Below the pieces are notes generated by a model. That model saw nothing but the letters and a program-made list of their open reading frames with translations. It was not told where the DNA came from and did no database searches. The position numbers and the translations under genes are program-made. Positions 49,178 to 64,000 of a stretch of DNA of 64,000 nucleotides are shown here, piece after piece. Numbering within the stretch: the stretch's first letter is position 1; the number at the start of each line of letters is the position of its first letter. The DNA comes from Actinomycetota bacterium. Lineage in GTDB: Bacteria; Actinomycetota; Coriobacteriia; Anaerosomatales; Anaerosomataceae. Location: assembly GCA_009773565.1 (NCBI GenBank), contig WSXY01000003.1:62001-126000 (forward strand), read 5' to 3'.

Positions 49178-50061
49178 TACTGCCCACTTCCGACCGATGA
49201 CTTATTCATCTCTTCAAGCGTGTGATACACGAGGGCAGCCGTGCCTGGACCAACGTGCATGCCAATGGTGGGGCCGATAGGGATGATTCGCACGGGCACT
49301 GAGACGACGGCCTCAACGAGCGCCGCAAGCTCTGCGCCCTCGGCTTCATCCACGATGTGGTGTACGGCAACGCCGCCGAATCCCTTCGCTTCTATGTCGC
49401 GCGAGAAGGCCGCGACCATCTCCGTCAGTGCCTTGCGCTTGGTGCGAACCTTGGCGAACACCTGGGTGCGGCCATCGGCGACAGTGAGAATCGGGCGAAT
49501 CTGCAACAAGGTACCAAGCAGCGCCTGCGCGCCACCCATTCGACCACCGCGACGCAAGTACTCAAGTGTATCGGGCACAAAGAGGAATCGGGTGCGTGCG
49601 ACCATGCGTTTCGCAGCGTCTGCAGCACCAGCCGCGTCAGCACCGCCTGCAACGGCTTCGGCAGCAGCAAGCACTGCGTAGCCGAGTTCCATGCAATTCG
49701 AACGCGAGTCCACGATCTCGATCACCGCACCTGGATGCTCGGCAAGCACCATGTCCCTCGCGAGCAGCGCCGTCGAGTACGTGCCGCTCATCTCCGAGGA
49801 CAGGAACACTCCGACGACTTCGTCACCGCGCGCGACAGGCGCGGTGAATGCATCGACGAAGTCGCTGATTGACGGCTGTGAGGACGTCGGGAACGCCTTT
49901 GACGCCGCAAGCGCCGCGAAGAAGCCTTCGGCAAACGGCGTGCCTTCCACGTACGTGACGCCGTCGAGGATGACGGATAGCGGCACCACAGTGATGTTGT
50001 ACTTCTCGCGATCCTCTTGCGGGAGATACGAGGTCGAATCCGTGACGATGCTAACGGACAT
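49177..50061 (-). CDS. DegV family fatty-acid-binding protein
   Basis: A 294-residue paralogue of the downstream DegV protein. SIVTDSTSYLPQEDREKYNITVVPL, FLSSEMSGTYSTALLARDM, LEYLRRGGRMGGAQALLGTLLQIRPIL and IGPTIGMHVGPGTAALVYH. GAGGAGG is 7 bases before the ATG. The 191-base gap upstream (50062-50252) holds only the promoter region of the divergent phosphodiesterase. Confidence 0.93.
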   Translation of the reverse strand: MSVSIVTDSTSYLPQEDREKYNITVVPLSVILDGVTYVEGTPFAEGFFAALAASKAFPTSSQPSISDFVDAFTAPVARGDEVVGVFLSSEMSGTYSTALLARDMVLAEHPGAVIEIVDSRSNCMELGYAVLAAAEAVAGGADAAGAADAAKRMVARTRFLFVPDTLEYLRRGGRMGGAQALLGTLLQIRPILTVADGRTQVFAKVRTKRKALTEMVAAFSRDIEAKGFGGVAVHHIVDEAEGAELAALVEAVVSVPVRIIPIGPTIGMHVGPGTAALVYHTLEEMNKSSVGSGQ

Positions 50062-50252
50062 GTACGCTCCTCCTCTGAACTCCTGCGGGGCAATCTCTTA
50101 TGGTCGCGCTTCATGGGCCGTGCGTCCAGAGCTGGCCGATGTTCGAGGTACTTCGCTGATCGCCTTGCCGTCTCCTTCGCGCGCAAAGACATACTTGCTC
50201 TCGCGGGCGGCGGTGTTCACACTCGCATCAGAAGCCGGCCGAGGAGGGTCAC

Positions 50253-51953
50253 ATGATGGCGCAGGAAATCGAAGCGACCGAGACAACAGCCGCGAAACGG
50301 AAAACTCCGCCCACGGCCTGGTTGCTCCTACTCGCAGGGCTTGTCGTCGCACTTGGTGTGTCGTATGCCGCCTATACCCTCGCGGGCTACTCGTGGGCAC
50401 AGGTCGTCGATTACGACAGCCCTTTCATCACAGCGGCAAACGGCGTCTTGAAGAGCTCGCGCCCCGCACTTGATACGCCCATTCCCGGCGCCACATCACG
50501 TCGAACGGTCCTTGTCGTCATCGACGGCCTGACTGACGCGACTTCGCGCACGATGCCTTCGATCGAGGCGCTTAGGAAGCGCGGCAACGACGTGGCGTTG
50601 ACGGTTCCCCAGCCGAGCCTCTCCTACCCCACCTGGACGACCATCCTCACCGGCGCGACGCCGCAGATAAGCGGCGTCACCACGAACTGGTACGAGAAGC
50701 GCGTACCGCTTGAGACGCTCATGGACGTGGCAGCTGTTTCGGGTCGCTCCGTCGTCGTGGCGAGCCCGAAGGACATCGAGACCCTCTATAGCGCATCGAA
50801 GGTTGCTTCCACCGCATACACCGACTGGGTCGAGGGCGACTACGTGACCGACACCATCGTCGATGACGCGCTGTCGCTCGCGGCTGAGAAGAAGGCGGAC
50901 TTCGTGTTCGCGCTCTTCCCTGATGTCGACGAAGCAGGACACTCGTTCGGCCAGACCTCGGAGCAGTATGCCGCAACGGCCGCACAGGTCGATGCGGATC
51001 TCGCGCGACTCATCGACGGCCTTGACGACGGCAACACCGTCTTTGTGGTGCTCCCCGACCATGGACACGTACCCGCAGGCGGACATGGCGGCTGGGAAGA
51101 CCCGGTCATCCACACCTTCGCGGCGTTCGCCGGCCCCGGAGTGAAGCCCGGCAACGCTGAAGGTCGACTCCAGGATGTCGCACCCACCGTGGCTCTGCTC
51201 GCAGGCTTCCAGGCACCCTCCGGCACGAGCGGCGTGACGATCGACGGGCTCTTGGCCGATTCGAACGGCCAGGCGCAGGTGCTCGACACCGAGCGCTGGC
51301 AGCGGTTTGAGAACGCGTACTCCGCAACCGTGACGGGTTCCTCGACAACGGTCGAACTCGCCGACGCACAGCGACTCGCCAGCGATCGGCTGGATCGCCT
51401 TCCGCTCGCACTCGGTCTCCTGGCGATCGCACTCGCCGTTCTCGCGGCGATCGGCATCGCCTCGTGGCGCGCGCTCGTAGCCGCGCTTTCGGGTGCGCTC
51501 GCGTACGTAGCCGTCTACAACGGCTTCTTCTTCCTCGCCCACCGCTATGCCTGGTCGCTCTCGACCTTCAATGAGGAATCGATGATCCAGGCGTTCTTCA
51601 ACGGACGCATGATCGAAGCAGTGATCGCGGGCGTCATCGCATGCGCAGTCGCTGGCGATATCTACTTGCTGATGCGACCGGAGCCACGGGGCGTGCGTGC
51701 CGGATTCAACGTCGAATGGATTTCGCTTGGAGTCGCAACCGCACTCGCGATCCAGGTGATTCTCGGGCTTCAGGTCGCGTGGTTCCTCTGGAAGTGGGGT
51801 GCCGAGACTGTATGGCGCCTACCCGACCTCATGTGGGGATTCAAGTATGACCTCGACCTCATCCAGATGACGGCGATTGCGGGGGTCGCGATTCTCGGAC
51901 CGGTTGTGACGTACCTCATAGGTCGCTTCCACCCGCGGATTCGTGCGACCTAG
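50253..51953 (+). CDS. Membrane-bound alkaline-phosphatase-superfamily phosphodiesterase
   Basis: A 566-residue protein. N-terminal membrane helix (about residues 20-42), an extracytoplasmic catalytic domain of the type I phosphodiesterase/nucleotide pyrophosphatase family, then five or so C-terminal membrane segments (from about 390). Metal-site motifs: TVLVVIDGLTDATS, the nucleophile threonine in SLSYPTWTTILTGATPQ, FALFPDVDEAGHSFG and VLPDHGHVPAGGHGG. Such proteins hydrolyse phosphodiester or phospholipid headgroup bonds at the surface. GAGGAGGG lies 4-5 bases before the ATG. Substrate unknown. Confidence 0.86.
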   Translation: MMAQEIEATETTAAKRKTPPTAWLLLLAGLVVALGVSYAAYTLAGYSWAQVVDYDSPFITAANGVLKSSRPALDTPIPGATSRRTVLVVIDGLTDATSRTMPSIEALRKRGNDVALTVPQPSLSYPTWTTILTGATPQISGVTTNWYEKRVPLETLMDVAAVSGRSVVVASPKDIETLYSASKVASTAYTDWVEGDYVTDTIVDDALSLAAEKKADFVFALFPDVDEAGHSFGQTSEQYAATAAQVDADLARLIDGLDDGNTVFVVLPDHGHVPAGGHGGWEDPVIHTFAAFAGPGVKPGNAEGRLQDVAPTVALLAGFQAPSGTSGVTIDGLLADSNGQAQVLDTERWQRFENAYSATVTGSSTTVELADAQRLASDRLDRLPLALGLLAIALAVLAAIGIASWRALVAALSGALAYVAVYNGFFFLAHRYAWSLSTFNEESMIQAFFNGRMIEAVIAGVIACAVAGDIYLLMRPEPRGVRAGFNVEWISLGVATALAIQVILGLQVAWFLWKWGAETVWRLPDLMWGFKYDLDLIQMTAIAGVAILGPVVTYLIGRFHPRIRAT

Positions 51954-52047
51954 AACCGACCGTTCGTCACCTCAGGTCATACCGACACTCAAGAGACGCC
52001 CGCGCGCGCCGATGACACAGGTGTAACCGCGTTCAGAGGATGTCACC

Positions 52048-52623
52048 ATGGTCAGCGCGCTCGCAACACTTCCCCTGCTTCGCCAGCACATCGCTGCCGA
52101 GGAGGACTTGCTCACCGTCGTCGTGAACGCGCGATCGCGGGTGGAAGCGAACCTCGCGCTTGGCATCTTGCGCGAGAAGCTCCCCGAGAAAGTCCTTGTC
52201 GCAGCGCTCAACTTGCGAGAAGTGCTCGACTCGCTCCCCGCTTACCCGTGTTCGATGGCCGTCGACGAGGCTATGCTCGCCCGGGTGTCGGGCCTTAAGA
52301 AGATTCGCTCAGCCTGGACCAAGACTCTCGCTGACGATGACGGCATCGCCCTCAACGTCACCACAGCCGGAAACTTCTGCTTCGACCTCGTGCTCGAGAT
52401 CGACGGCACCACGTACTTCTGGACACCATCGACCGCCGACGAAGACATCGTCAACCCCGGACTTCTGGCGATGCTTCTCGACCGCAAGGCACTCCTACCA
52501 GCCGTCATCGCACTTGCCAAGGATATGGGACTCGTATTCAACCCGCGGTTCTACATGTCGCTCGACGACTGGAACCTTGACCACCTACAGGACAGCTTCG
52601 AGGATCTTCAGTCGCTGTTCTGA
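52048..52623 (+). CDS. Conserved-looking protein of unknown function
   Basis: A 191-residue soluble protein I do not recognise. It begins SALATLPLLRQHIAAEEDLLTVV, includes NVTTAGNFCFDLVLEIDGTTYFW in the middle, and ends with an acidic LDDWNLDHLQDSFEDLQSLF. No signal peptide, membrane segment or clear catalytic motif. AGAGGA is 7 bases before ATG 52048, and base composition matches neighbours, so it is probably a real gene. It is convergent with the flavoprotein gene. Confidence 0.65.
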   Translation: MVSALATLPLLRQHIAAEEDLLTVVVNARSRVEANLALGILREKLPEKVLVAALNLREVLDSLPAYPCSMAVDEAMLARVSGLKKIRSAWTKTLADDDGIALNVTTAGNFCFDLVLEIDGTTYFWTPSTADEDIVNPGLLAMLLDRKALLPAVIALAKDMGLVFNPRFYMSLDDWNLDHLQDSFEDLQSLF

Positions 52624-52632
52624 GGTCTGCGA

Positions 52633-53208
52633 TCAGCTCGCAAGCCGCTTCATGAGCCACGCCATATTCACGCCAAGCGTCGCCATCGTGCGCAGACCCT
52701 CCTCGTCGGATTCGACTGAGCCGGCTGCCCCGCCGATACCGAGGTTCCAGTACGAGGACCCCGGAACGATCATCTCCGAGATGAAGAACAGGTGGTTGAT
52801 CGTGTCGAGCGCATGGATCGCGCCCGCGCGCCGCACGGCCGCGACCCCCGCACCGACCTTGCGTCGGAGCATCTCCGGATTCGCACGACCGACATAGCCG
52901 AGGCGATCGATGAACGCTTTCGTCTCGGCGGTCACGTCTGAGAAGTAAACCGGCGAACCGATGAGGATGCCGTCTGCAGCATCGGCCGCAGCGATGCACT
53001 CGTTGCCGAAATCATTCAGCCCCGCGCAACGGTGGTCTTTTGTCTCGCGACACTTCATGCACGCAGTACAGCCGTGTATCTTCTTGCCCGCAAACTGAAT
53101 GAGCTCGGTTTCGATGCCCTCTGCGCGGAGTTCGCTCAGAACCCGCTCGAGCAAGATCGCGGTATTGCCGTCCTTGCGCGCGCTCCCGTTGAATGCAACG
53201 ACTTTCAT
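52633..53208 (-). CDS. Iron-sulfur flavoprotein / NADPH-dependent FMN reductase
   Basis: A 191-residue flavodoxin-fold protein. [21 protein letters not shown] is the FMN-phosphate loop; [18 protein letters not shown] has the C-x2-C-x2-C plus one further cysteine of iron-sulfur flavoproteins (Isf) that bind a [4Fe-4S] cluster; [20 protein letters not shown] follows. Isf proteins act in anaerobe redox or oxygen/peroxide detoxification. GGAGG lies 6 bases before the ATG. It is upstream of no clear partner; pncA-pncB lie on the same strand 25 bases away. Confidence 0.88.
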
Positions 53209-53232
53209 AGCGTTCCTCCTGTTTGAGCCTGA

Positions 53233-53844
53233 TCAGACGTGTGAACTCTCGACGACTCGAACACCCGCGGCGTGCATCTCAGCAATGGCACGGTCCCCGT
53301 CGCCAGGCGTAGCATCGACGGCGCGACAGCCGTCGGTCACAAGCGTCACACCGAAGCCGAGGCCGACTGCGTCAAGCACCGTCGCACGCACACAATAGTC
53401 GGTTGCAAGGCCGAGCACCACGATCTCATCGACTGCGTGCGACTCGAGAAACTCACCGAGACCGGTCGCGGTACGGTGATCGTTGTCGAAGAAGCCGCTG
53501 TACGAATCGATCGCCGGGTCCGAACCCTTTCGCACGACCCGGTCGATTCCCGCCACATCAAGCGCGGAATGGAAGCTCGCGCCCGGCGTACCCTGCACGC
53601 AATGATCGGGCCAGAGCATCTGGTCGATACCGCCGAGTAGAACCCGGTCGCCGGGCGATGCACCCACATGGGCGGAAGCAAAAGAACCATGCTCCACAGG
53701 ATGCCAATCCTGGGTGGCAACGACGAGACCTGAACGAAGAATCAGCGCGTTGGCAACGGGCACGATTTCGTCACCACCCGCCACCGGCAACGCGCCGAAC
53801 GGCATGAAGTCGTTCTGGATATCCACCAGCAGGAGCGCTCTCAC
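53233..53844 (-). CDS. pncA: Nicotinamidase
   Basis: A 203-residue cysteine hydrolase deamidating nicotinamide to nicotinate. Catalytic triad: D in LLLVDIQNDFMP, K in VVRKGSDPAIDSYSGFFDND, C in GLATDYCVRATVLDAV. Metal ligands lie in TQDWHPVEHGSF; HCVQGTPGASFH follows. Start GTG 53844 overlaps the pncB stop (GTGA), with GGAGG about 10 bases upstream. With pncB it forms a NAD salvage operon. Confidence 0.94.
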   Translation of the reverse strand: MRALLLVDIQNDFMPFGALPVAGGDEIVPVANALILRSGLVVATQDWHPVEHGSFASAHVGASPGDRVLLGGIDQMLWPDHCVQGTPGASFHSALDVAGIDRVVRKGSDPAIDSYSGFFDNDHRTATGLGEFLESHAVDEIVVLGLATDYCVRATVLDAVGLGFGVTLVTDGCRAVDATPGDGDRAIAEMHAAGVRVVESSHV

Positions 53845-55322
53845 GGCGTAGTCCCTCCTTCATTCTCGAGCCCACGAGCCTTCAGAATGAGCTGCTTTCG
53901 AAGATCATACAGGGACTGCTCGACACCGACGGTGTAACGATGCGGGTTGAGGAACCGCTTCACGCTCGGATCGAGCATGGCGAGTTGCTCCGCCGTACGG
54001 GCGCGCGAAGCCTCGATGCCCGGCAGCACACTGACGAGCTCACCGCCTCGGAGCACCGGCTCTAGAACGTCGTCGGCAGGTTCGCCGCAGAACGACTTCC
54101 GTCGCGTCGAATCCTCCGGATCCACCATCACGCACTCACAGGGCGGACTCGTGAGCTCGTTGTACAGCATGTCGCCCGCGAACACACCGTCGCGCACGAA
54201 GCGACGCACCTGCAGAATGCCCGGCATGGTCACCTTGGCCGACTGCTCGGACACCTTGATGCGAGACTCCCACTCCCCGCCCGGTGGACGCACCGCGGAT
54301 AGCTTATAGACGCCGCCGAGCGAGCCTTCACCATCTGCAGTCGCAAGGCGCGTTCCGACTCCCCAGACATCGATTGCAGCGCCCTGGTCCTTGAGGCTCT
54401 CGATCAGGTACTCATCGAGCTCGTTGCTCGCGTAGATCTTCACGTCGCGGAGCCCGCCGTCGTCAAGAATCTCCCGCGCGCGCCGCGAGAGCCACGCGAG
54501 GTCACCCGAGTCGATTCGAATGCCGATCATCTTATGACCGCGCTTCGCCAGCCAGCGACCCGCTGTCACCGCATTGCGGACACCATCAAGCGTGTCGTAG
54601 GTGTCGACCAGGAGCGTCGCATTGTTCGGCATCGCATCCGCGTACGCCATGAACGCTTCGAGTTCGGTGTCGAACGCCATCACCCAACTGTGCGCGTGCG
54701 TGCCGCCGACGGGAATTCCGTAGCGTTGACCAGCGAGTACATTGCTCGTCCCCGCACACCCGCCGATGTACGCCGCCCTACTCGCCGAGAGACCACCGTC
54801 CGGACCCTGTGCGCGGCGAAGCCCGAACTCGATCACCGGATCTCCCGCTGCCGCGATGCAGACCCGCGCGGCCTTCGTCGCAACAAGCGTCTGGAAGTTG
54901 ATGATGTTGAGCAGCGCCGTCTCGATGACCTGGCACTGGACGATGGGGCCGGTGACCCGGACGAGAGGTTCTCTCGGGAAGACGACGGTCCCCTCCGGCA
55001 CAGCCTCGACATCACAGGTGAACCGAAACTCCTTCAGCCACACGAGGAATTCCTCCGGGAAGAGCCGGGACCCATCGTTGCCGACAAGCGTGCGAAGGTA
55101 GGCGATGTCCTCCTCGGCGAAGTGAAGGCCGAGCAGATAGTCGACGACTTGCTCAAGCCCGCACGCGACGGCGTACCCACCGTCGAAGGGGCTGCGACGG
55201 AACGACGCATGGAAGCACGCATCGAGCTCCGCAGTACCGGAGCGCCAGTACGCGTGGGCCATCGTAAGCTGGTAGAGGTCGGTCAGCATGGCGGGAACAT
55301 GCGATCGGGCTTCTGGTGCCAT
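53841..55322 (-). CDS. pncB: Nicotinate phosphoribosyltransferase
   Basis: A 493-residue enzyme forming nicotinate mononucleotide from nicotinate and PRPP. MLTDLYQLTMAHAYWRSG is the conserved N-terminus; GGTHAHSWVMAF contains the histidine that is autophosphorylated in the family; IRIDSGDLAWLSRRAREIL and VGTRLATADGEGSLGGVYKL follow. Start ATG 55322 has GGAGG 5 bases upstream. Translationally coupled to pncA by a 4-base overlap. Confidence 0.95.
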   Translation of the reverse strand: MAPEARSHVPAMLTDLYQLTMAHAYWRSGTAELDACFHASFRRSPFDGGYAVACGLEQVVDYLLGLHFAEEDIAYLRTLVGNDGSRLFPEEFLVWLKEFRFTCDVEAVPEGTVVFPREPLVRVTGPIVQCQVIETALLNIINFQTLVATKAARVCIAAAGDPVIEFGLRRAQGPDGGLSASRAAYIGGCAGTSNVLAGQRYGIPVGGTHAHSWVMAFDTELEAFMAYADAMPNNATLLVDTYDTLDGVRNAVTAGRWLAKRGHKMIGIRIDSGDLAWLSRRAREILDDGGLRDVKIYASNELDEYLIESLKDQGAAIDVWGVGTRLATADGEGSLGGVYKLSAVRPPGGEWESRIKVSEQSAKVTMPGILQVRRFVRDGVFAGDMLYNELTSPPCECVMVDPEDSTRRKSFCGEPADDVLEPVLRGGELVSVLPGIEASRARTAEQLAMLDPSVKRFLNPHRYTVGVEQSLYDLRKQLILKARGLENEGGTTP

Positions 55323-55490
55323 GGATTCCTCCGTCGGCCGGGTTCTTACAACGGTACCCCGAACCGGCACGCCTCGCACGTCTGATCGGGCGACACAGAG
55401 GCCCTGTGCGCGCTAGACTCGACAGTGAACACGAGCAGCCGATAGCGGCATCTTGGCGAGAGACGCACAATTCACCCTTCTGGAGGATCC

Positions 55491-56747
55491 ATGGCACGCA
55501 AGCGCGACATCGCACGGGTTGTCGCGGCCCGCTACCTTTCCCGCGCCGGCAGCGAGGCTGCCTTCTTCGTCGGCGTCTGGGGCAAGGCGGCCTTCGACTT
55601 CAACGCGACGGCATCGCAGATCGCCGTCTTGATGTTCGTGCTGAGTGTCGTGTCCATCGCCGGCAGCGTCGTCGGCGGCGTCCTGGTTGACCGCTACGGT
55701 CCCCGCAACGTGCTCATCGGTGCAGAGGTGCTCTTCGTACCTGCCTCGCTCGCGATCGCGTTCTCGCACGACCTTACCTCGCTGACAGCTCTGGTCGCTT
55801 TCTGGGGACTCGTGGGTGCACCGGTTATGACGGCCGGAGCCTCGTTCGCACCATTCCTCGCGGGCGACGACGGCGACTTGCGGAAGATCAACTCGTGGAT
55901 CGAGTCGGCGGGCTCGGCAGCGTTCGTCACCGGTCCGGCATTGGGGTCTCTCATCGTTCACTACGCCAATGTCGACTGGGTCTTCTTCATCGACGCGCTG
56001 ACATCACTCATCGCCGCAGCCCTCGTTGCGCGAACAGTGCTCCATCACCCGAAACGCGAAGAGGGTCACGGCAGTGCACTCGGCGAGGTCCGCGAGGGAA
56101 TCCGGGCCGTCTATCGCGTGAGATCGCTCCGCTTCTACGTCCTCGCTGGTTCAGTCGTATGGCTCGGATTCGGCGCCTTCAGTGCGCTTGAACCGCTCTT
56201 CTATCGCGACGTCCTCAAGACCGGCGTCGAGGCGATCGGTTATATGAACTCCATCTTCGGTGCGGGAATCCTCGCCGGTGCTCTGCTCTTGCAGCGACTG
56301 CCCAAGAGGATCGTCTCGGCGCGCGGGCTGTGTCTCATGGTGGTTCTAACGGGCCTCGGGAGCATCGCATACGTAGGCACCGACAACATCCGCGTCGTCG
56401 CCATCGGGTCGATCGTCTGGGGCATGGTCATAGGGATTCTCGAGCCGCTCCTCCGTACACTCCTTCACCGAGACTCGCCTGAAGGCATGGTCGGCAGGAT
56501 CACCGGGACCGCCCAGGTACACCGCCAGGCTGGCGAGCTTGTTCCGCTCGCTTTCGCGCCCGCACTAGCGGCGCTCTTTGGCGTTCAGGTGACGCTGATC
56601 GGCGGCGGCGTGCTCGTGGCGATCGTGGCCGCGCTCGCGTTCTCCGAGGCGAACAAGATCGACCGGGAGAGTGCTTCCCGGCCACCGGTCGAGGTCGAAC
56701 TGGCGACGCTTCTGACCTCGGACGAGCCCATCTCGCCGAACCGGTAG
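55491..56747 (+). CDS. MFS transporter
   Basis: A 418-residue major facilitator with about 12 membrane segments. The loop between helices 2 and 3, GGVLVDRYGPRNVLIG, is the MFS motif A. ARYLSRAGSEAAFFVGVWGK at the N-terminus and the overall order resemble the MFS_3/enterobactin-exporter-like group, which export drugs or metabolites. GGAGG lies 4-5 bases before the ATG. It is divergent from pncB and upstream of the methionine leader; substrate unknown. Confidence 0.85.
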   Translation: MARKRDIARVVAARYLSRAGSEAAFFVGVWGKAAFDFNATASQIAVLMFVLSVVSIAGSVVGGVLVDRYGPRNVLIGAEVLFVPASLAIAFSHDLTSLTALVAFWGLVGAPVMTAGASFAPFLAGDDGDLRKINSWIESAGSAAFVTGPALGSLIVHYANVDWVFFIDALTSLIAAALVARTVLHHPKREEGHGSALGEVREGIRAVYRVRSLRFYVLAGSVVWLGFGAFSALEPLFYRDVLKTGVEAIGYMNSIFGAGILAGALLLQRLPKRIVSARGLCLMVVLTGLGSIAYVGTDNIRVVAIGSIVWGMVIGILEPLLRTLLHRDSPEGMVGRITGTAQVHRQAGELVPLAFAPALAALFGVQVTLIGGGVLVAIVAALAFSEANKIDRESASRPPVEVELATLLTSDEPISPNR

Positions 56748-56788
56748 GTCCCGGAGCACAGTGGGGAATCCGCGCTTCACGGTGCGGT

Positions 56789-56817
56789 TTGACGCCTGGA
56801 CATGGCACCCCTATCGC
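56789..56817 (+). promoter_or_regulatory. Putative promoter of the methionine operon
   Basis: TTGACG (56789-56794), a 17-base spacer and TATCGC (56812-56817) lie 57 bases before the start of the methionine-rich leader peptide. The -35 box is good, the -10 weak. Confidence 0.4.
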
Positions 56818-56873
56818 TGGTACTGTCTCGTAACTTGAAGTCGAGAGCTCCCGAGGAGGTGAACCGAAGCACC

Positions 56874-56981
56874 ATGGCACCGAACGTGTTTGTGATGATG
56901 ATGGACATGATGATGACCCCGCCCGGGTCTATGCGCGTATGCGCAGACTCCGGGCGACTCCGGCTCCCCGCCGGCCAGTAG
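56874..56981 (+). CDS. Methionine-rich leader peptide, probable attenuator of the met operon
   Basis: A 35-codon open frame starting at ATG 56874, in the gap before metY. It reads MAPNVFVMMMDMMMTPPGSM and then 15 more residues to a TAG at 56979-56981. Eight of the first 20 codons are ATG, in two runs of three, at positions expected for ribosome stalling when charged tRNA-Met is scarce. An AGGAGG lies 14 bases upstream, a rather long spacing. A 15-base-pair hairpin begins four bases after the second Met run. The next genes make homocysteine, so methionine-responsive attenuation is a natural reading. Too short for normal gene calling; inference about function. Confidence 0.72.
   Translation: MAPNVFVMMMDMMMTPPGSMRVCADSGRLRLPAGQ
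56920..56974 (+). promoter_or_regulatory. Attenuator-like hairpins in the metY leader
   Basis: Hairpin 1 (56920-56956) pairs CGCCCGG with CCGGGCG, GTCT with AGAC and GCGC with GCGC around a GTAT loop, with small bulges; about 15 base pairs. Hairpin 2 (56960-56974) is CCGGC-TCCCC-GCCGG. The 3' arm of hairpin 1 and the 5' arm of hairpin 2 share GACTCCGG, so they could compete for the same partner. No T-run follows either, so the mechanism may involve termination by another means or the metY ribosome site. Confidence 0.55.
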
Positions 56982-57026
56982 GTCGCGGGCATCTTCCATC
57001 GCACACAAATACGAGAGGAACCTCCC

Positions 57027-58328
57027 ATGAGCGCTTCGGCACCCCGTTTCGACACCGTCGCCATCCACGGCGGCGCGGCCCCCGATCCCACCACCGGATC
57101 GCGCGCGGTCCCCATCTATCAGACGGTTGCGTACAACTTCAAAGACACCGATCACGCAGCGGACCTCTTCGGTCTGCGAGCATTCGGCAACATCTACTCC
57201 CGCATCATGAACCCCACCACCGACGTGCTCGAGCAGCGTCTCGCAGCACTTCATGGCGGCACCGCTGCTGTCGCGGTCGCATCAGGTCATGCTGCCGAGA
57301 ATCTCGCGCTCCTCAACCTCGCGGGTTCCGGCGACTCGATCGTCGCGTCCACGTCGCTCTACGGTGGCACGTGGAATATCTTCCTACACACCTTCAAGCG
57401 CCTCGGCATCACCGTCCGATTCGTGGAGCCGACCGACATCGCCGGTTTTGTGTCGGCGACTGATGACACCACCAAGGCGTGGTTCATCGAGACGATCGGA
57501 AACCCTCGCCTTGACGTTCCCAACATCAAGGGCCTTTCCGATGCCGGGCGCGAGCTTGGCGTGCCGCTCGTAGTGGACAACACGTTCGCGACGCCGTACC
57601 TGTGTCGTCCCATCGAGCATGGCGCTGCAATCGTCGTCGAGTCGCTCACAAAGTGGATCGGCGGTCACGGAACGTCCCTCGGCGGCGCGGTCATCGACGG
57701 CGGCAACTTCGACTGGGGCAACGGCCGCTTCCCGCAGTTCACGGAGCCCGACGCCTCGTATCACGGGTTGAAGTTCTGGGACGTCTTCGGCGACTTCCCC
57801 GGACTTGGCAACGTGGCGTTCGGCATCCGGTTGCGCGTACAGCTCCTCCGCGACCTCGGCGCCTCGATCTCGCCGTTCAACGCACAGCAGATCCTGCTCG
57901 GCATTGAGACACTTTCTCTGCGAGTGGAGCGCCACAGCACGAACGCGCTTGCGGTCGCGAAGTATCTTGAGGCGCATCCGAAGGTCGCCTGGGTGACGTA
58001 CCCCGGCCTCGACAACCACCCGACGAAGGCGAATGCGGATGAGTACCTGTCGCACGGCCTCTACGGTGGCGTCGTCGTGTTCGGCGTCAAGGGCGGTCAG
58101 GACGCCGGCCGTGCACTCATCGAGGGTGTCGAATTGTTCTCGCACCTAGCAAATGTCGGCGACGCGAAGTCGCTGATCATCCATCCCGCGACGACCACGC
58201 ACTCGCAACTGAACGATGAGGAGCTTGTGCGCGCCGGTATCGGGCCCGACTTCGTGCGGCTTTCGATAGGAATCGAGGACATCGACGACATCATCGCTGA
58301 TCTCGAACAGGCCCTCGAGCGGGCATAG
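57027..58328 (+). CDS. metY: O-acetylhomoserine sulfhydrylase
   Basis: A 433-residue Cys/Met-metabolism PLP enzyme making homocysteine from O-acetylhomoserine and sulfide. FDTVAIHGGAAPDPTTGSRA then PIYQTVAYNFKDTDHAADLF, YSRIMNPTTDVLEQRLAALH, and the PLP lysine in VVESLTKWIGGHGTSLGG; IHPATTTHSQLNDEE is typical for the MetY branch. AGAGGA is 7 bases before the ATG. First structural gene after the methionine-rich leader; metX follows after 2 bases. Direct sulfide use suits an anaerobe. Confidence 0.95.
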   Translation: MSASAPRFDTVAIHGGAAPDPTTGSRAVPIYQTVAYNFKDTDHAADLFGLRAFGNIYSRIMNPTTDVLEQRLAALHGGTAAVAVASGHAAENLALLNLAGSGDSIVASTSLYGGTWNIFLHTFKRLGITVRFVEPTDIAGFVSATDDTTKAWFIETIGNPRLDVPNIKGLSDAGRELGVPLVVDNTFATPYLCRPIEHGAAIVVESLTKWIGGHGTSLGGAVIDGGNFDWGNGRFPQFTEPDASYHGLKFWDVFGDFPGLGNVAFGIRLRVQLLRDLGASISPFNAQQILLGIETLSLRVERHSTNALAVAKYLEAHPKVAWVTYPGLDNHPTKANADEYLSHGLYGGVVVFGVKGGQDAGRALIEGVELFSHLANVGDAKSLIIHPATTTHSQLNDEELVRAGIGPDFVRLSIGIEDIDDIIADLEQALERA

Positions 58329-58330
58329 GA

Positions 58331-59479
58331 ATGGCTGCAAAGAACGACTCCCCGGGGAGCTTCTCGCTCCCCGGGGGTCATACACTTCTCTCGGGTCAAC
58401 GACTCGAGTCCATAGAAGTCGCGTTCGAGACCTTCGGTAAGCTTGATGCCCAGGGCTCGAACGCTGTACTGATCTTCCACGCGCTCTCGGGTGATTCGCA
58501 CGTCGCAAACGGCCCCGACGTAACCGGCCGTCCTCGTGATGGCTGGTGGGCCGACCTGGTGGGTCCGGGGCGCGCCATCGATACGACCCGGTACTTCGTC
58601 GTGTGCGCAAACGTGATTGGCGGTTGCTCCGGGACGACAGGCCCCGGTTCGATCGATCCGGCAACCGGCGCATCGTATGGAACACGTTTTCCGCTCGTGA
58701 CCATAGAGGATATGGCCGACATCCAGGCAGCGCTTCTCGATTCGCTCGGTATCGCTCGTCTCTTGGCGGTCGTCGGCGGCTCGATGGGTGGTATGCAGGC
58801 GCTCGCCTTCGCGCAGCGGTTCCCCGATCGCTGTGCAAGCGTGCTCGCCATCGCAACCACGTGGCGCCTTGGTGCGCAGGCGATCGCCTTCAATGAGGTT
58901 GGTCGCACAGCGATCCTTGGCGATCCGGCATTCTTGGGCGGGGACTACTACGGCTCCGGACAACCGGAAAGCGGTCTTGCCATCGCGCGCATGATCGGAC
59001 ACATCACGTATCTCTCAGATGACTCGATGCGCGAGAAGTTCGGTCGGCGACTGCGCGAACGCGAAGGACACGCCTTCGAGTTTGTGAGCGAGTTCGAGGT
59101 CGAGAGCTACCTCGCCTACCAGGGTCGCAAATTCGTGGAGCGCTTCGACGCCAATACCTACCTCTACATGACCAAAGCTATGGACTACTTCGATCTCAGC
59201 GCCGGCTTTCCAGACCTCGTCGACGCGGTGCGCGGTATCGACGCGCGGTTCCTTGTGCTGTCGTTCAGCAGCGACTGGCTCTTCCCGACGTACCAGGCGA
59301 GAGAACTCGTCGATGCACTCCAGGCCGCCGGTTCCGAGGTCTCATTCGCTGAGATCGAGAGTCCGTACGGCCACGACGCATTTCTCCTCGAGCCCGCCGA
59401 GCAGACCCGTTTCATCGCACCGTTCCTCGCGAGCGTATATGCGGACGGGCGCGACACACGAGGAGATGATGCACGATGA
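58331..59479 (+). CDS. metX: Homoserine O-acetyltransferase
   Basis: A 382-residue alpha/beta-hydrolase that acetylates homoserine. LIFHALSGDSHVAN, WWADLVGPGRAIDT, NVIGGCSGTTGP; the nucleophile serine is in VVGGSMGGMQAL, the acid in SSDWLFPTYQARE and the histidine in SPYGHDAFLLE. Length and motifs match MetX. It overlaps metW by 4 bases and follows metY by 2 bases. Confidence 0.94.
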   Translation: MAAKNDSPGSFSLPGGHTLLSGQRLESIEVAFETFGKLDAQGSNAVLIFHALSGDSHVANGPDVTGRPRDGWWADLVGPGRAIDTTRYFVVCANVIGGCSGTTGPGSIDPATGASYGTRFPLVTIEDMADIQAALLDSLGIARLLAVVGGSMGGMQALAFAQRFPDRCASVLAIATTWRLGAQAIAFNEVGRTAILGDPAFLGGDYYGSGQPESGLAIARMIGHITYLSDDSMREKFGRRLREREGHAFEFVSEFEVESYLAYQGRKFVERFDANTYLYMTKAMDYFDLSAGFPDLVDAVRGIDARFLVLSFSSDWLFPTYQARELVDALQAAGSEVSFAEIESPYGHDAFLLEPAEQTRFIAPFLASVYADGRDTRGDDAR

Positions 59480-60108
59480 CGGCCGCTCAGTTCCTCCGCT
59501 CGGACCTTCGATTCATCGGTGAACTGGTGCCCACGGGAAGCCGCGTGCTCGATCTCGGGTGTGGAAGCGGCGACCTCCTCGCCTACCTGCGAGACGAACG
59601 AGACTGCACCGTGCGCGGTGTTGAGCTTTCGGCCCCAGACATCGCCACAGCTATCGGACGTGGCATCTCCGTGGTACAAGACGACCTCGACCGAGGACTC
59701 GCCGGCTTTGCCGACGGCTCGTTCGATATCGTCATCCTGTCGCAAACGCTGCAGATCGTTCGCAACCCCGCGCTCGTGCTCCGTGAGATGCTCCGCGTGG
59801 GTCGACGCGCGGTGCTATCGTTCCCAAACTTCGGTAACTGGCGAGTGCGAGGTTATCTGGCATTTCGCGGTCGGATGCCCGTTTCACGCTCGATTCCGTA
59901 CAGCTGGTATGACACGCCCAACATCCACCACACCACCCTGAAGGACTTCAGGGACTTCGTTTCCGCAAACGGGGGCGTGATCCTCCGGGAGCTCCCACTT
60001 GCGGCGAACTCCTCAGGCGTGGGCGTTCACCCGGTGCGCTTCGTCCCGAACCTGCGCGCTGAGCTTGCGGTAGCGGTCGTCACAAGGGCAGATGACGTCG
60101 CTCCGTAG
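59476..60108 (+). CDS. metW: MetW, methionine biosynthesis methyltransferase-like protein
   Basis: A 210-residue class I SAM-fold protein. VLDLGCGSGDLLAYLRDE is the SAM-binding motif; VRGVELSAPDIATAIGRGIS, FDIVILSQTLQIVRNPALVL and FPNFGNWRVRGYLAFRGRMP are hallmark MetW stretches, as is SWYDTPNIHHTTLKDFRDF. MetW partners MetX in homoserine acetylation in several bacteria. ATGA overlap with metX. Confidence 0.93.
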   Translation: MTAAQFLRSDLRFIGELVPTGSRVLDLGCGSGDLLAYLRDERDCTVRGVELSAPDIATAIGRGISVVQDDLDRGLAGFADGSFDIVILSQTLQIVRNPALVLREMLRVGRRAVLSFPNFGNWRVRGYLAFRGRMPVSRSIPYSWYDTPNIHHTTLKDFRDFVSANGGVILRELPLAANSSGVGVHPVRFVPNLRAELAVAVVTRADDVAP

Positions 60109-60215
60109 GCATTACTCATATTCTCATCGGATTAGTGCGCTTATACATCTTGCCCGGACACAGGTAGCGGCGTAGGGTTAACTGCAGACGATCACCCGTC
60201 CGGTTGGGAGACACC

Positions 60216-61169
60216 ATGAATGCCTACACCTCTGTTATCGAAACCATCGGCCGCACACCGGTCGTGCAACTGAACCGACTTGCCGAAGGCTTGCCCGCTT
60301 CCGTCGTTATCAAGCTTGAGTCGCGCAATCCTGGCGGCTCGGTCAAGGATCGTATCGGATGGGGCATGGTCGAGGACGCCGAGCAGCGCGGACTCATCAC
60401 GCCCGGGGAGTCCGTTCTCATTGAACCGACATCGGGAAACACCGGCATCGCCCTCGCGATGATCGGCGCGTCCCGCGGATATCGAGTAATCCTGACCATG
60501 CCTGAGTCAATGTCGATCGAGCGACGCAAGCTCCTCGCAGCATACGGCGCTGAACTCGTACTCACCCCTCGCGCCACGGGTATGAAGGGAGCGGTTGACG
60601 CAGCGAACGAACTTGCCGCAGCAACGCCAAACTCCTTCATCCCCGGGCAGTTCGACAACCCCGCCAACCCGGCCTCCCACTACTGCACGACCGGGCCCGA
60701 GATCGAGTCGATTCTCGAAGGGAAGACGCCGGGGGCATTCGTCGCCGGTGTCGGGACAGGTGGCACGATCACGGGCGGCGGACGATATCTCAAGGAGCGC
60801 TTCCCCGGCATACGGCTTGTGGCGGTCGAGCCCGCAGAGTCCCCTATCATCGGGCAGCGCATTCGCGGTGAGGAACTCACCCCGGGTCCTCATCTCATCC
60901 AGGGTATCGGCGCTAACTTCATCCCGACCGTGCTCGATCTCGAGCAACTCGACGAGGTGCTCCCCGTTCCGGGTGAGGTCGCAATCGCCACGGCGCGGCG
61001 ACTCGCCGCCGAAGAAGGCATCTTTGTGGGGATCTCGTCCGGCGCGAACGTGGCAGCTGCGCTCCAACTTGCGGCGCGCCCCGAATTCGCAGGAACGGTC
61101 ATCGTGACGGTCGCCCCGTCGACCGGCGAGCGCTATCTCTCGACGCCGCTCTGGGAAGGCATCACCTGA
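60216..61169 (+). CDS. cysK: Cysteine synthase (O-acetylserine sulfhydrylase A)
   Basis: A 317-residue PLP enzyme. [16 protein letters not shown], the PLP lysine in [54 protein letters not shown], and [19 protein letters not shown]. Start ATG 60216 has GGGAG 5 bases upstream; an in-frame TTG lies 12 bases earlier. The 107-base gap after metW includes TATACA-like sequence, so it may have its own promoter. It is one base upstream of an Rrf2 regulator. Confidence 0.95.
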
Positions 61170-61170
61170 T

Positions 61171-61587
61171 ATGCGCGTTTCACAGCGACTCGACTACTCG
61201 ATCCGCCTGCTCGTTGCGCTCGCCGCGCGACCAGCAGGTGAGTTCGTAGGCGCAGGTGAACTCGCGGAGTCGCTGGGTATGCCCCGACGGTTCCTTGAGT
61301 TGCAGGCTACCGCACTTGCCAAGACCGGCCTCATCACATGCCGTAGAGGCACTGGCGGCGGCTGCGCTCTCGCGAAACCGGCACACTCGGTGACGCTCAC
61401 CCAGGTCATCGAGGCAGTCGAGGGAACGCTTCTCGATGTACCACTGACCAGCGATTCGGCGTCAGCCGAAACGTGGGCGAGTATCGCAACAGTAATCAAG
61501 GAACAACTCTCGTCAGTCACACTCGCTGACCTTGCAGCACGCCAGCGTGAGATCGATGCCGAACGAACTCCCATGTACTTCATCTAA
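61171..61587 (+). CDS. Rrf2-family regulator, CymR-like
   Basis: A 138-residue winged-helix regulator. RVSQRLDYSIRLLVALAARP, LAESLGMPRRFLELQATALAKTGLITCRRGTGGGCALAKP is the Rrf2 DNA-binding region. The three-cysteine iron-sulfur motif of IscR/NsrR is missing (only two scattered cysteines), as in CymR of Bacillus, which represses cysteine genes in complex with CysK. The adjacency to cysK (1-base gap) strongly suggests the same partnership. The stop overlaps the convergent gene by 4 bases. Confidence 0.88.
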   Translation: MRVSQRLDYSIRLLVALAARPAGEFVGAGELAESLGMPRRFLELQATALAKTGLITCRRGTGGGCALAKPAHSVTLTQVIEAVEGTLLDVPLTSDSASAETWASIATVIKEQLSSVTLADLAARQREIDAERTPMYFI

Positions 61588-61976
61588 GTAGTGCTGCCGA
61601 CAACCTCCCTACATGTCGCAGCAAGGCGCGCATGGATGGTGCGCATGAAGGCGACCTTGTCTGGTGCGCTTCGCGCAAGCTGATCGAGCAGTTCGCCGAA
61701 CGCCGATCGCGCGAGATCGGGAACGCCCACACCCAGGCCCTTAAGACCTCGGACGCGGTCACGGGTGAACGAGAAGACCGCGCGCGCATCGGTGCCCAGC
61801 AGAGCGCTGCCCGCGCCCCCGGTACGCGAGAGCGTAACCCGGTACCAATCGGCATCCCGGATGACCAACATCTCAACGCCCTCGTCCGTCAGTGCCACTC
61901 GAACGAGTCGCTCCAGCACGACAATGAGCTCGCTGGTGTCCGCGTCGGACGGGCCGACCGCCCGATGCCCGTTCAT
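61584..61976 (-). CDS. Protein of unknown function
   Basis: A 130-residue soluble protein I do not recognise: SELIVVLERLVRVALTDEGVEMLVIRDADWYRVTLSR then ARAVFSFTRDRVRGLKGLGVGVPDLARSAF. No signal or membrane segment. Its start overlaps the HEAT-repeat gene stop by 4 bases (ATGA), so it is probably real and cotranslated with it. Convergent with the Rrf2 gene. Confidence 0.6.
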   Translation of the reverse strand: MNGHRAVGPSDADTSELIVVLERLVRVALTDEGVEMLVIRDADWYRVTLSRTGGAGSALLGTDARAVFSFTRDRVRGLKGLGVGVPDLARSAFGELLDQLARSAPDKVAFMRTIHARLAATCREVVGSTT

Positions 61977-62500
61977 GCCGGCTCATCAAGTAAGGCGAGG
62001 AGTTCTTCCGCCCATCGTACGAACTCCTGCGGCCGACCTCTGTCGCGCAGTTGTTCCAGAGACTCGCGCGCTGCCGGACCGATCTCCTCGAGCGCTCCCA
62101 ACAAGGCGTGTGTGGCGTCACATGAAGCAAAGACCATCGGCAAGGTGTCCACAAAGACCGCTGCCGTGGCAGCGCCGCCACAACGGCCAAGCGCATGCGT
62201 GATCGTGAAGTACGTACCAGGTTGTCCGACGCCCCACCTCTGGAGAACGACCCTAAACCGCTCCAGCAAGGCACGCTCGACTTCCTCGTCCCGCCCGAAG
62301 CGTGCGAGCGCCAGGTTCGCCGCAAGCACCGGCGCTCTATCCTCGGCAATCAGCCCCCGCAGTATGGGAATCGCACGCGGATCACCACTCGCACCAAGCG
62401 AGTAGACAAGCGCCGTGCGAACGCCAGGGTCGGTCTTCGCGGACCTGATCCTGCGCACCATTGCGGCGAAGTCGTCGGTCGTCGGCTTCTTCTCGGTCAT
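61973..62500 (-). CDS. HEAT-repeat domain protein
   Basis: A 175-residue all-helical protein. Repeats: TDPGVRTALVYSLGASGDPRAIPILRGLIAE, VLAANLALARFGRDEEVERALLERF, GTYFTITHALGRCGGAATAAVFVD, and ATHALLGALEEIGPAARESLEQL, typical of HEAT/PBS-lyase-like scaffolds. Function unknown; the coupled 130-residue protein may be its partner. Confidence 0.72.
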   Translation of the reverse strand: MTEKKPTTDDFAAMVRRIRSAKTDPGVRTALVYSLGASGDPRAIPILRGLIAEDRAPVLAANLALARFGRDEEVERALLERFRVVLQRWGVGQPGTYFTITHALGRCGGAATAAVFVDTLPMVFASCDATHALLGALEEIGPAARESLEQLRDRGRPQEFVRWAEELLALLDEPA

Positions 62501-62585
62501 GTGAGCCTCCCACGGTCGAAGTACATCCGTGCCCCTACTTCAAGCCTACAGGGGAGGTCTGACATGATTGATCGAGCCGAGGTGC

Positions 62586-63473
62586 CTACTCTGCGTAAAG
62601 CCGCCAGAGCGCCTGCGTACCGAGTTCCGCGCCACCATCTTCGGCGAGACGCTCATAGAGGCGCTTTGCAAGGTCGAGCCCGGGCAGGTCGATGCCGGCG
62701 GTCTCAGCTTCGGCCAGCGCGATACGCAGGTCCTTCACAAAGTGCTTCACAAAGAAGCCGGGAGCGAAATCGTCTTGAAGGATCCGTAGACCGAGATTGC
62801 TCATCGACCAGGATCCGGCAGATCCTGCCGCAATTGCTGAATGCACGAGTGCGGGATCGAGACCCTGCCCCTTTGCGTAGACAAGCGCCTCGACGACGCC
62901 GAGCATCGTGCCGGCGATCGCAATCTGGTTGGCCATCTTCGTGTGCTGACCGGTGCCCGCCGGGCCCATGTGGGTCACCGTCTTACCCATGACCTCAAAG
63001 AGCGGCAGCGCGCGCTCAAAAGCCTCATTCTCGCCGCCGACCATGATCGTAAGACGAGCTTCGCGTGCTCCGATATCGCCGCCCGAAACAGGCGCATCAA
63101 GTGCAAGCACTCCTCGCGCAGCAGCAGCCTCGGCGATTCGCTTAGCGAGCGACGGTGTCGACGTGGTCATGTCGACAATGACCGACCCGCGAGGAGATCC
63201 TTGCACGATGCCACCCGGAGCGAGATAGATCTCCTCGACATCGGCAGGGTAGCCGACGATGGTGATCGTGATTTCAGCTCTCGATGCAGCCTCACCAGCG
63301 CTAAATGCCCAACTCGCACCGCGCGACAGCAGGTCCTCGGCCTTGCTCGCGGTCCGGCTGAACAGCACGAGTTGATATCCGGCGTCGAGAAGGTGTCCGG
63401 CCATCGAGCGACCCATCACGCCGAGACCGACGAATGCGACGGTGGGGAGCTGATTCGTCCCCGAACTCAGCAC
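62586..63473 (-). CDS. Beta-hydroxyacid dehydrogenase (3-hydroxyisobutyrate/tartronate semialdehyde reductase family)
   Basis: A 295-residue NAD(P)-dependent enzyme. Rossmann motif VAFVGLGVMGRSMAGHLLDAG, then VSGGDIGAREARLTIMVGG (substrate site), and the catalytic lysine in GTGQHTKMANQIAIAGTMLG; NLGLRILQDDFAPGFFVKHFVKDL later. This is the HIBADH/GlxR/GLYR1 family; the substrate (3-hydroxyisobutyrate, tartronate or succinic semialdehyde) is not readable. Start GTG 63473, with GAGG 7 bases upstream; it overlaps the preceding small gene by 7 bases. Confidence 0.9.
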   Translation of the reverse strand: MLSSGTNQLPTVAFVGLGVMGRSMAGHLLDAGYQLVLFSRTASKAEDLLSRGASWAFSAGEAASRAEITITIVGYPADVEEIYLAPGGIVQGSPRGSVIVDMTTSTPSLAKRIAEAAAARGVLALDAPVSGGDIGAREARLTIMVGGENEAFERALPLFEVMGKTVTHMGPAGTGQHTKMANQIAIAGTMLGVVEALVYAKGQGLDPALVHSAIAAGSAGSWSMSNLGLRILQDDFAPGFFVKHFVKDLRIALAEAETAGIDLPGLDLAKRLYERLAEDGGAELGTQALWRLYAE

Positions 63474-63703
63474 GTGCCCGCCTCACTACCGGTGCTCTTA
63501 TTCTGATGCGCGCCAACCGCCCAATCCGTGACGCCCGCCATACACGACGGACATGGATGCAGCGCGAGCACCTCGAGGGTGCTCAGCAACTCGACGTCTT
63601 CGTCAAGAATCGCGGGAACCAGGTGCGTGAACCGGTGACCGCATGCGTGGTCGACCTGCGCCGGACGCAACGAACCGGGTGCGTTATGAGTGTCAGATGC
63701 CAT
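63467..63703 (-). CDS. Small CGH...CPSC putative zinc-ribbon protein
   Basis: A 78-residue frame with VDHACGHRFTHLVP and, 25 residues later, LALHPCPSCMAG, the spacing of a small zinc ribbon. Its stop overlaps the start of the dehydrogenase by 7 bases, suggesting coupling. No good ribosome site precedes ATG 63703. Possibly real; function unknown. Confidence 0.45.
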   Translation of the reverse strand: MASDTHNAPGSLRPAQVDHACGHRFTHLVPAILDEDVELLSTLEVLALHPCPSCMAGVTDWAVGAHQNKSTGSEAGTC

Positions 63704-63735
63704 GCGACCAGTGTAGCGGAAAGCACCCCGGATGC

Positions 63736-64000
63736 TTAGGCCCTCAACGCCAGCGACACGAGGAAGACCAGCAACACGATAACAATCATCGCAACGTTCA
63801 CGCTCATGTCACGAGCGTAGCGCTGAATCGCACGCCGCGTCCCCACAATGCTTTCCTCGCCGAAATGATCCGCGGCGGGCCAACCCGCGCGTTCCTGTGT
63901 GACACCGGCGACCGCAAGTCGCGTAATGTCGGCTAGCCAGCGTGCGGACTTCTCGAGCCGGGTAAGCCCCTCGCTGCTGTACGCATGCAAGGTCGCTCCA
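63736..64000 (-). CDS. C-terminally membrane-anchored small protein (5' end outside window)
   Basis: The frame is open to the window edge, with a TTG at 63990 as a possible start. It encodes an amphipathic region (LTRLEKSARWLADITRLAVAG, then GTRRAIQRYARDMSVN) followed by a single C-terminal membrane helix VAMIVIVLLVFLVSLALRA. The role cannot be judged and the N-terminus may be missing. Confidence 0.5.
   Translation of the reverse strand, partial: GATLHAYSSEGLTRLEKSARWLADITRLAVAGVTQERAGWPAADHFGEESIVGTRRAIQRYARDMSVNVAMIVIVLLVFLVSLALRA

Follow-up and report, generated by a model that had tools for sequence, protein, structure and literature searches.

A methionine-codon leader upstream of metY-metX-metW in Anaerosomatales as a probable translational attenuator

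The metY-metX-metW operon of an Actinomycetota bacterium from the order Anaerosomatales (class Coriobacteriia) is preceded by a short methionine-rich open reading frame and a set of RNA stems that together, as judged from sequence comparison and folding calculations, probably constitute a methionine-specific translational attenuator sensing the charging of methionyl-tRNA. The window analysed is a stretch of 64,000 nucleotides (GenBank assembly GCA_009773565.1, contig WSXY01000003.1, positions 62,001 to 126,000), and the leader, its RNA stems and metYXW all lie on its + strand. The leader is a conserved feature and not a product of chance, and comparative data greatly strengthen the original observation made in this one sequence. 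The most important structural element, a stem over the metY start site (here termed P1), had escaped the earlier note on this DNA.

The leader ORF (56874–56981) consists of 35 codons followed by TAG, opens as MAPNVFVMMMDMMMTPPGS and encodes the peptide MAPNVFVMMMDMMMTPPGSMRVCADSGRLRLPAGQ. The features that had first drawn attention to it, two MMM runs and eight Met within the first 20 residues, are present as claimed: Met occupies positions 1, 8–10, 12–14 and 20, and the two runs correspond to codons 8–10 (56895–56903) and 12–14 (56907–56915). A Shine-Dalgarno sequence, GGAGGTG (56855–56861), precedes the start codon and is invariant in an alignment of 26 metY leaders. Reading of the sequence suggests TGGTACTGT (56818–56826) as a candidate extended −10 element for the leader transcript, which a simple consensus scan did not flag. 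The leader RNA is far more stably folded than its dinucleotide shuffles (z=−5.2), none of 200 of which was as stable.

The proposed controlled gene, metY (57027–58328), encodes an O-acetylhomoserine sulfhydrylase (NCBIfam TIGR01326, 649 bits) and is followed by metX (58331–59479), encoding a homoserine O-acetyltransferase (NF001209), and by metW (59476–60108; TIGR02081), both of which score above their NCBIfam cut-offs. The metY Shine-Dalgarno sequence, GAGAGGA (57013–57019), lies mostly within P1. Directly behind metYXW, at 60204–61587, are cysK and then a gene for an Rrf2-family, CymR-like regulator (61.7 bits against NCBIfam CymR, under the cut-off), a pair that may possibly represent separate cysteine control. 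The window's genome contains two copies of the leader, each heading its own complete metY-metX-metW operon. The second copy (L228, G000:C1:29000-36000) has its leader, beginning MARSVFVMAMDMMMTWPGS, at 1037–1140, and its MetY is 81% identical to the first.

Database searches gave the leader no existing identity. The leader peptide corresponds to no family in NCBIfam or Pfam, where it produced one sub-threshold Pfam match (E 0.17), and a search for a phage origin of the leader returned no matches. A known RNA family was likewise rejected, as Rfam gave no match to a SAM riboswitch or T-box in window positions 50000–64000 at E values up to 1, and six related loci yielded one chance match only.

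Conservation of the leader was assessed using MetY relatives drawn from metagenome genomes of the Coriobacteriia and Anaerosomatales. Twenty-six metY upstream regions, two of them from the window's genome, share the Shine-Dalgarno sequence, the start codon, the motif (M)MMDMMMT-x-PGS and the hairpin that comes next; a metY-type leader is absent from the upstream regions of L026 and L043. When 396 genomes of the class were searched with a leader model (R1), strong matches were confined to the window's order and all adjoined metY. A separate protein search located a close metY in 33 of 69 genomes of the order, and comparison of the coordinates from both searches placed the leader directly upstream of metY in all 33. 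One further genome (G037) has a leader close to the end of a contig but no close match to metY.

All 34 distinct metY leaders have the Met run in the reading frame set by the first ATG downstream of the Shine-Dalgarno sequence, a first internal Met at codon 8–10, and at least four internal Met within codons 2–22. The exact positions of these residues shift, giving Met blocks such as MAMDMLM, MMEMMM, TMMDMMM and MMRGMM that retain the Met richness, as well as an in-frame insertion within the block (L119), while the T-x-P-G-S core that follows is nearly invariant. That the frame and the Met count are kept while positions move argues for translation, with Met content as the conserved property, and the expectation that Met codons would be conserved upstream of metY in relatives is borne out. 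Across the loci examined, Met-codon leaders have no targets other than metYXW and metNIQ. Outside the Coriobacteriia, in phylum samples of ∼396 genomes each that did not have Streptomyces lividans as a named target, R1 and a second model for metN-type leaders (R2, described below) gave background-level scores only.

P1 is predicted to pair leader codons 3–13, including Met codons (5′ strand, 56880–56912), with 29 bases that end with the metY Shine-Dalgarno sequence (3′ strand, 56990–57018), and has 25 pairs in the minimum free energy fold. Directly after the Met codons and still within the leader ORF is a 15 bp hairpin, P2 (56920–56956; arms 56920–56936 and 56941–56956), and the leader stop codon is held in a 9 bp hairpin, P3 (56967–56989; arms 56967–56976 and 56981–56989). 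RNAalifold applied to a MAFFT alignment recovered P2 and, of P1, the pairs at the start codons; the remainder of P1 was missed because sequence alone does not align its 3′ strand, and strands were therefore permuted between species instead. This swap test used 10 leaders that are <72% identical in the tested segments, with 3′ strands permuted among species. With the 5′ strand restricted to codons 2–8, none of 3,000 permutations equalled the native P1 pairing (native mean −17.5 versus permuted −12.4 kcal/mol, sd 1.0). The P1 5′ strand showed no effect in the swap test against two control regions.

The hairpin co-variation that had been anticipated in relatives is also found, in the apical stem of P2 (12/3,000 permutations) and in P3 (14/3,000). 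Pairing of the P2 3′ arm with the P3 5′ arm (c:d, or 2:3, the would-be antiterminator) gave no such signal in metY leaders (586/3,000). Since P1, P2 and P3 co-vary and the 2:3 pairing does not, they can be read as one compatible structure, in which P2 and P3 are predicted arms closed by P1. The 15-base-pair hairpin behind the Met runs thus stands as first described. The second hairpin is present as well, although it coexists with the first and does not compete with it.

The effect of ribosome position on the metY start site was calculated as opening energies at equilibrium, with neither co-transcriptional folding nor pseudoknots taken into account. On this basis the mean cost of opening the site is 22.1 kcal/mol in the free leader and 21.7 kcal/mol once a ribosome has reached the leader stop; it falls to 15.6 kcal/mol for a ribosome at the first Met run and to 8.2 kcal/mol when a second ribosome is initiating behind it. 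A ribosome on the last Met gives 20.8 kcal/mol alone and 9.7 kcal/mol with another queued behind it, so that in the model P1 stays closed with a lone ribosome on the last Met and opening requires either a stall at the first run or a queue. The first internal Met is always at codon 8–10, and a ribosome waiting there would therefore cover the P1 5′ strand. In each of 10 representatives the native opening cost (20–25 kcal/mol) exceeds that of shuffled leaders (8–14 kcal/mol), and other gene starts in the window cost 10–19 kcal/mol to open. The mean unpaired probability of the metY Shine-Dalgarno sequence (0.44 free versus 0.51 stalled) is a poor measure of this change, for which the opening energy of the whole site is clearer. 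According to these calculations, the metY start site is hidden by P1, and the block is lifted by a ribosome stalled at the first Met run together with an initiating one, but not by a ribosome at the stop codon.

We propose that with ample charged tRNA-Met, ribosomes would clear the leader and P1 would re-form, so that metY would be translated poorly, as would metX and metW along with it. Under a shortage of charged tRNA-Met, ribosomes would stall on the Met runs, P1 would be held open and metY would be translated. P1 pairing extends over the start codon of the leader itself, so that translation of the leader must begin ahead of synthesis of the metY RNA or else use the Shine-Dalgarno sequence, which is left free, and the model assumes that ribosomes load onto the leader during transcription. 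A translational attenuator is expected to combine a leader ORF carrying signal codons, a stem linked to that ORF that hides a ribosome-binding site, and opening of the stem by a stall but not by transit to the stop codon. The first is apparent in the conservation of the Shine-Dalgarno sequence, start, frame and Met runs; the second in the permutation result for P1 (0/3,000) and in opening energies far above those of shuffles; and the third is the calculated behaviour just described. From the sequence comparisons and the folding model together we infer that the leader responds to methionine. Ribosome-mediated attenuation, as the earlier note had envisaged it, is retained in its Met-codon leader with conserved frame, start, Shine-Dalgarno sequence and Met runs, and is given up in its two competing hairpins.

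A related leader occurs upstream of a different target. Weaker R1 matches in other families of the class, for example MITTAAHITMMMVMEMPSPGHFAMPRNHRVHGETGRLR, proved to be a related leader located upstream of an ABC transporter, the genes of which have MetN, MetI and MetQ as their best NCBIfam matches at scores under the curated cut-offs. In gut Coriobacteriia a related Met leader, MMMVMEMPSPGH, lies upstream of metNIQ, the methionine importer, and model R2 detects the metN-type leader in about 60 of the 396 class genomes with E values below 1e-15. The metN leaders (L123–L186) are apparently leaderless, the ATG lying 7 bases past a TAnnnT box in most of 40. Intermediate forms are represented by L123, L173, L230, L231, L235 and L236, and one genome (G368) has leaders before both metN (L236) and metY (L237). 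The latter (G368:C11, 458–570; MRNLLATYRMMMP) is a shorter metY-associated form in which the stop follows immediately after the Met run. A third leader type, MSRETTSMMMTMPMPEPGFIGTCACPGLSL, is found ∼290 bases before metNIQ within the window's own family (L229, G119:C212, 161–265).

The metN leaders also differ in their RNA structure. Their stop-codon hairpin co-varies strongly (0/3,000), as does the hairpin after the Met codons (2/3,000), while P1-like pairing is weakly supported (31/3,000) and is not seen with codons 2–8 alone. A U-rich tail is present in 7 of 38, a minority. Transcription termination is plausible for these leaders, and the metN branch probably couples the same sensor to a different output that is partly transcription termination. 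We rate the chances as about even that there is one ancient Coriobacteriia family of Met-codon leaders with two outputs, namely a start-site stem in environmental lineages, at metYXW, and in gut lineages a hairpin of the terminator type at metNIQ.

These observations bear directly on transcription attenuation of the trp type, in which hairpins 1:2, 2:3 and 3:4 would compete, the last would be a terminator, and a ribosome on the Met codons would decide between them. The metY leaders do have a cognate-codon ORF before biosynthesis genes and the segments in the correct order, and the co-varying stop-codon hairpin and occasional U-rich tail of the metN leaders are what such a mechanism would produce. 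However, an intrinsic terminator is not a general property of either group, a terminator-like site being found in 1 of 34 metY leaders and 7 of 38 metN leaders, and the window contains no + strand terminator. Nor is 2:3 an exclusive antiterminator in the metY leaders, given its lack of co-variation; in metN leaders this pairing is invariant and hence uninformative (1,348/3,000), and d:e remains the preferred pairing when a ribosome occupies the last Met. Closure of the start site by P1 is, moreover, far stronger than expected. Attenuation of the trp type is thus an unlikely explanation of the metY leader, and the classical competition between two hairpins put forward initially is abandoned.

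Rho-dependent attenuation, which we consider quite improbable, would have ribosome release at the leader stop lay the C-rich, G-poor RNA ahead of metY open to Rho, RNA that a stalled ribosome would keep structured or covered. Rho has been proposed to act at terminator-less actinobacterial leader peptides (PMC1262725), and the bases past P3 in the window (CATCTTCCATCGCACACAAATACG) are indeed C-rich and G-poor, but these same bases are paired in P1 with co-variation that Rho binding would not select. A nascent-peptide sensor, in which the sequence MMMDMMMTxPGS would cause ribosome arrest by sensing methionine or SAM itself and not uncharged tRNA, is slightly less probable again. The near-invariance of the T-x-P-G-S core in metY leaders is suggestive of a functional peptide, yet Met positions vary from leader to leader with Met richness persisting, and the 5′ arm of P2 is built from the codons that follow the Met run, whose conservation RNA pairing therefore explains. 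Least credible of all is a new riboswitch for SAM, methionine or some other ligand with an incidental reading frame, since the very strongly conserved nucleotide sequence and the stable, junction-like fold that it would account for are accompanied by a conserved Shine-Dalgarno sequence, a start codon that is in frame in all 34 metY leaders, in-frame Met-block insertions (L119), leaderless starts in the metN family and no match in Rfam.

Many amino acids have known leader peptides, but regulation by methionine is usually ascribed to SAM riboswitches, T-boxes or repressors. Methionine stands apart from other amino acids in that a shortage of its tRNA endangers initiation as well. The conserved family of Met-codon leaders offers a computable switch with clear targets, synthesis in one lineage and import in another, and a natural comparison of one sensor with two kinds of output that includes gut Coriobacteriia. 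In the window's genome a SAM-I-like riboswitch lies directly upstream of metK (L227, G000:C17:41300-45300, 256–394). It is the sole such match there, at 35.7 bits and below the Rfam cut-off, and one SAM-I-like match per genome was found in 53 of the 61 genomes of the order that were searched. With this element on metK and a Met leader on metY, SAM and Met-tRNA charging may have separate sensors. If the leaders are one family with two outputs, they would form a well-supported natural methionine leader-peptide regulon alongside the metK SAM riboswitch, and the cell would read Met-tRNA charging and SAM separately.

Direct literature searches for a methionine leader peptide gave nothing relevant. 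A survey of Actinobacteria published in 2005 detected no conserved RNA structure ahead of methionine operons (PMC1262725), in keeping with the statement in the earlier note that no Met leader is well described in actinobacteria. That statement needs qualifying for one weak candidate, the metL leader proposed before metNIQ in a reannotation of S. lividans, for which termination was unclear (PMC8079986). Like the Coriobacteriia metN leaders, metL is a leaderless, proposed methionine leader in front of metNIQ, but it contains just two internal Met, with no run of them (MSTTSDRTPATEATTTPGARCMCRRMCAF), and PMC8079986 shows neither conservation nor structure for it. The sole actinobacterial methionine leader in the papers searched is therefore a thin case.

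Closer parallels exist for other signals. The polycysteine leaderless short-ORF attenuators of mycobacteria (Canestrari et al. 2020, as cited in PMC9031893), in the citing paper's account, resemble the metY leader in that the amino-acid-specific elongation rate on a small ORF controls translation of downstream biosynthesis genes with no obvious terminator; as described there they differ in being leaderless and in responding to cysteine, whereas the metY leaders use methionine and a strong Shine-Dalgarno sequence. The LEU element before leuA in Actinobacteria (PMC1262725) is similar in architecture, as its regulatory codon run pairs with the Shine-Dalgarno sequence of the next gene and closes a structured element. 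It concerns leucine, contains an internal pseudoknot and has no sequence likeness to the Met leader that we could see, and translation of the LEU leader was doubted because Leu-codon mutations left regulation unaffected (PMC1262725). The SAM-I (S-box) riboswitch likewise controls methionine and SAM genes, as its counterpart before metK in the window's genome may do, but it is a ligand-binding aptamer without a leader peptide and has no match at metY. Drug-responsive translational attenuators are classical: in ermC, ribosome stalling on the leader ORF frees the downstream ribosome-binding site from a stem that covers it, as is proposed here for the metY leader. In the macrolide-type ermC and ermB attenuators (PMC8274638) the signal is a drug and not amino-acid supply. 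The class of mechanism is known; the amino acid, the RNA architecture and the family appear to be new within the searchable papers.
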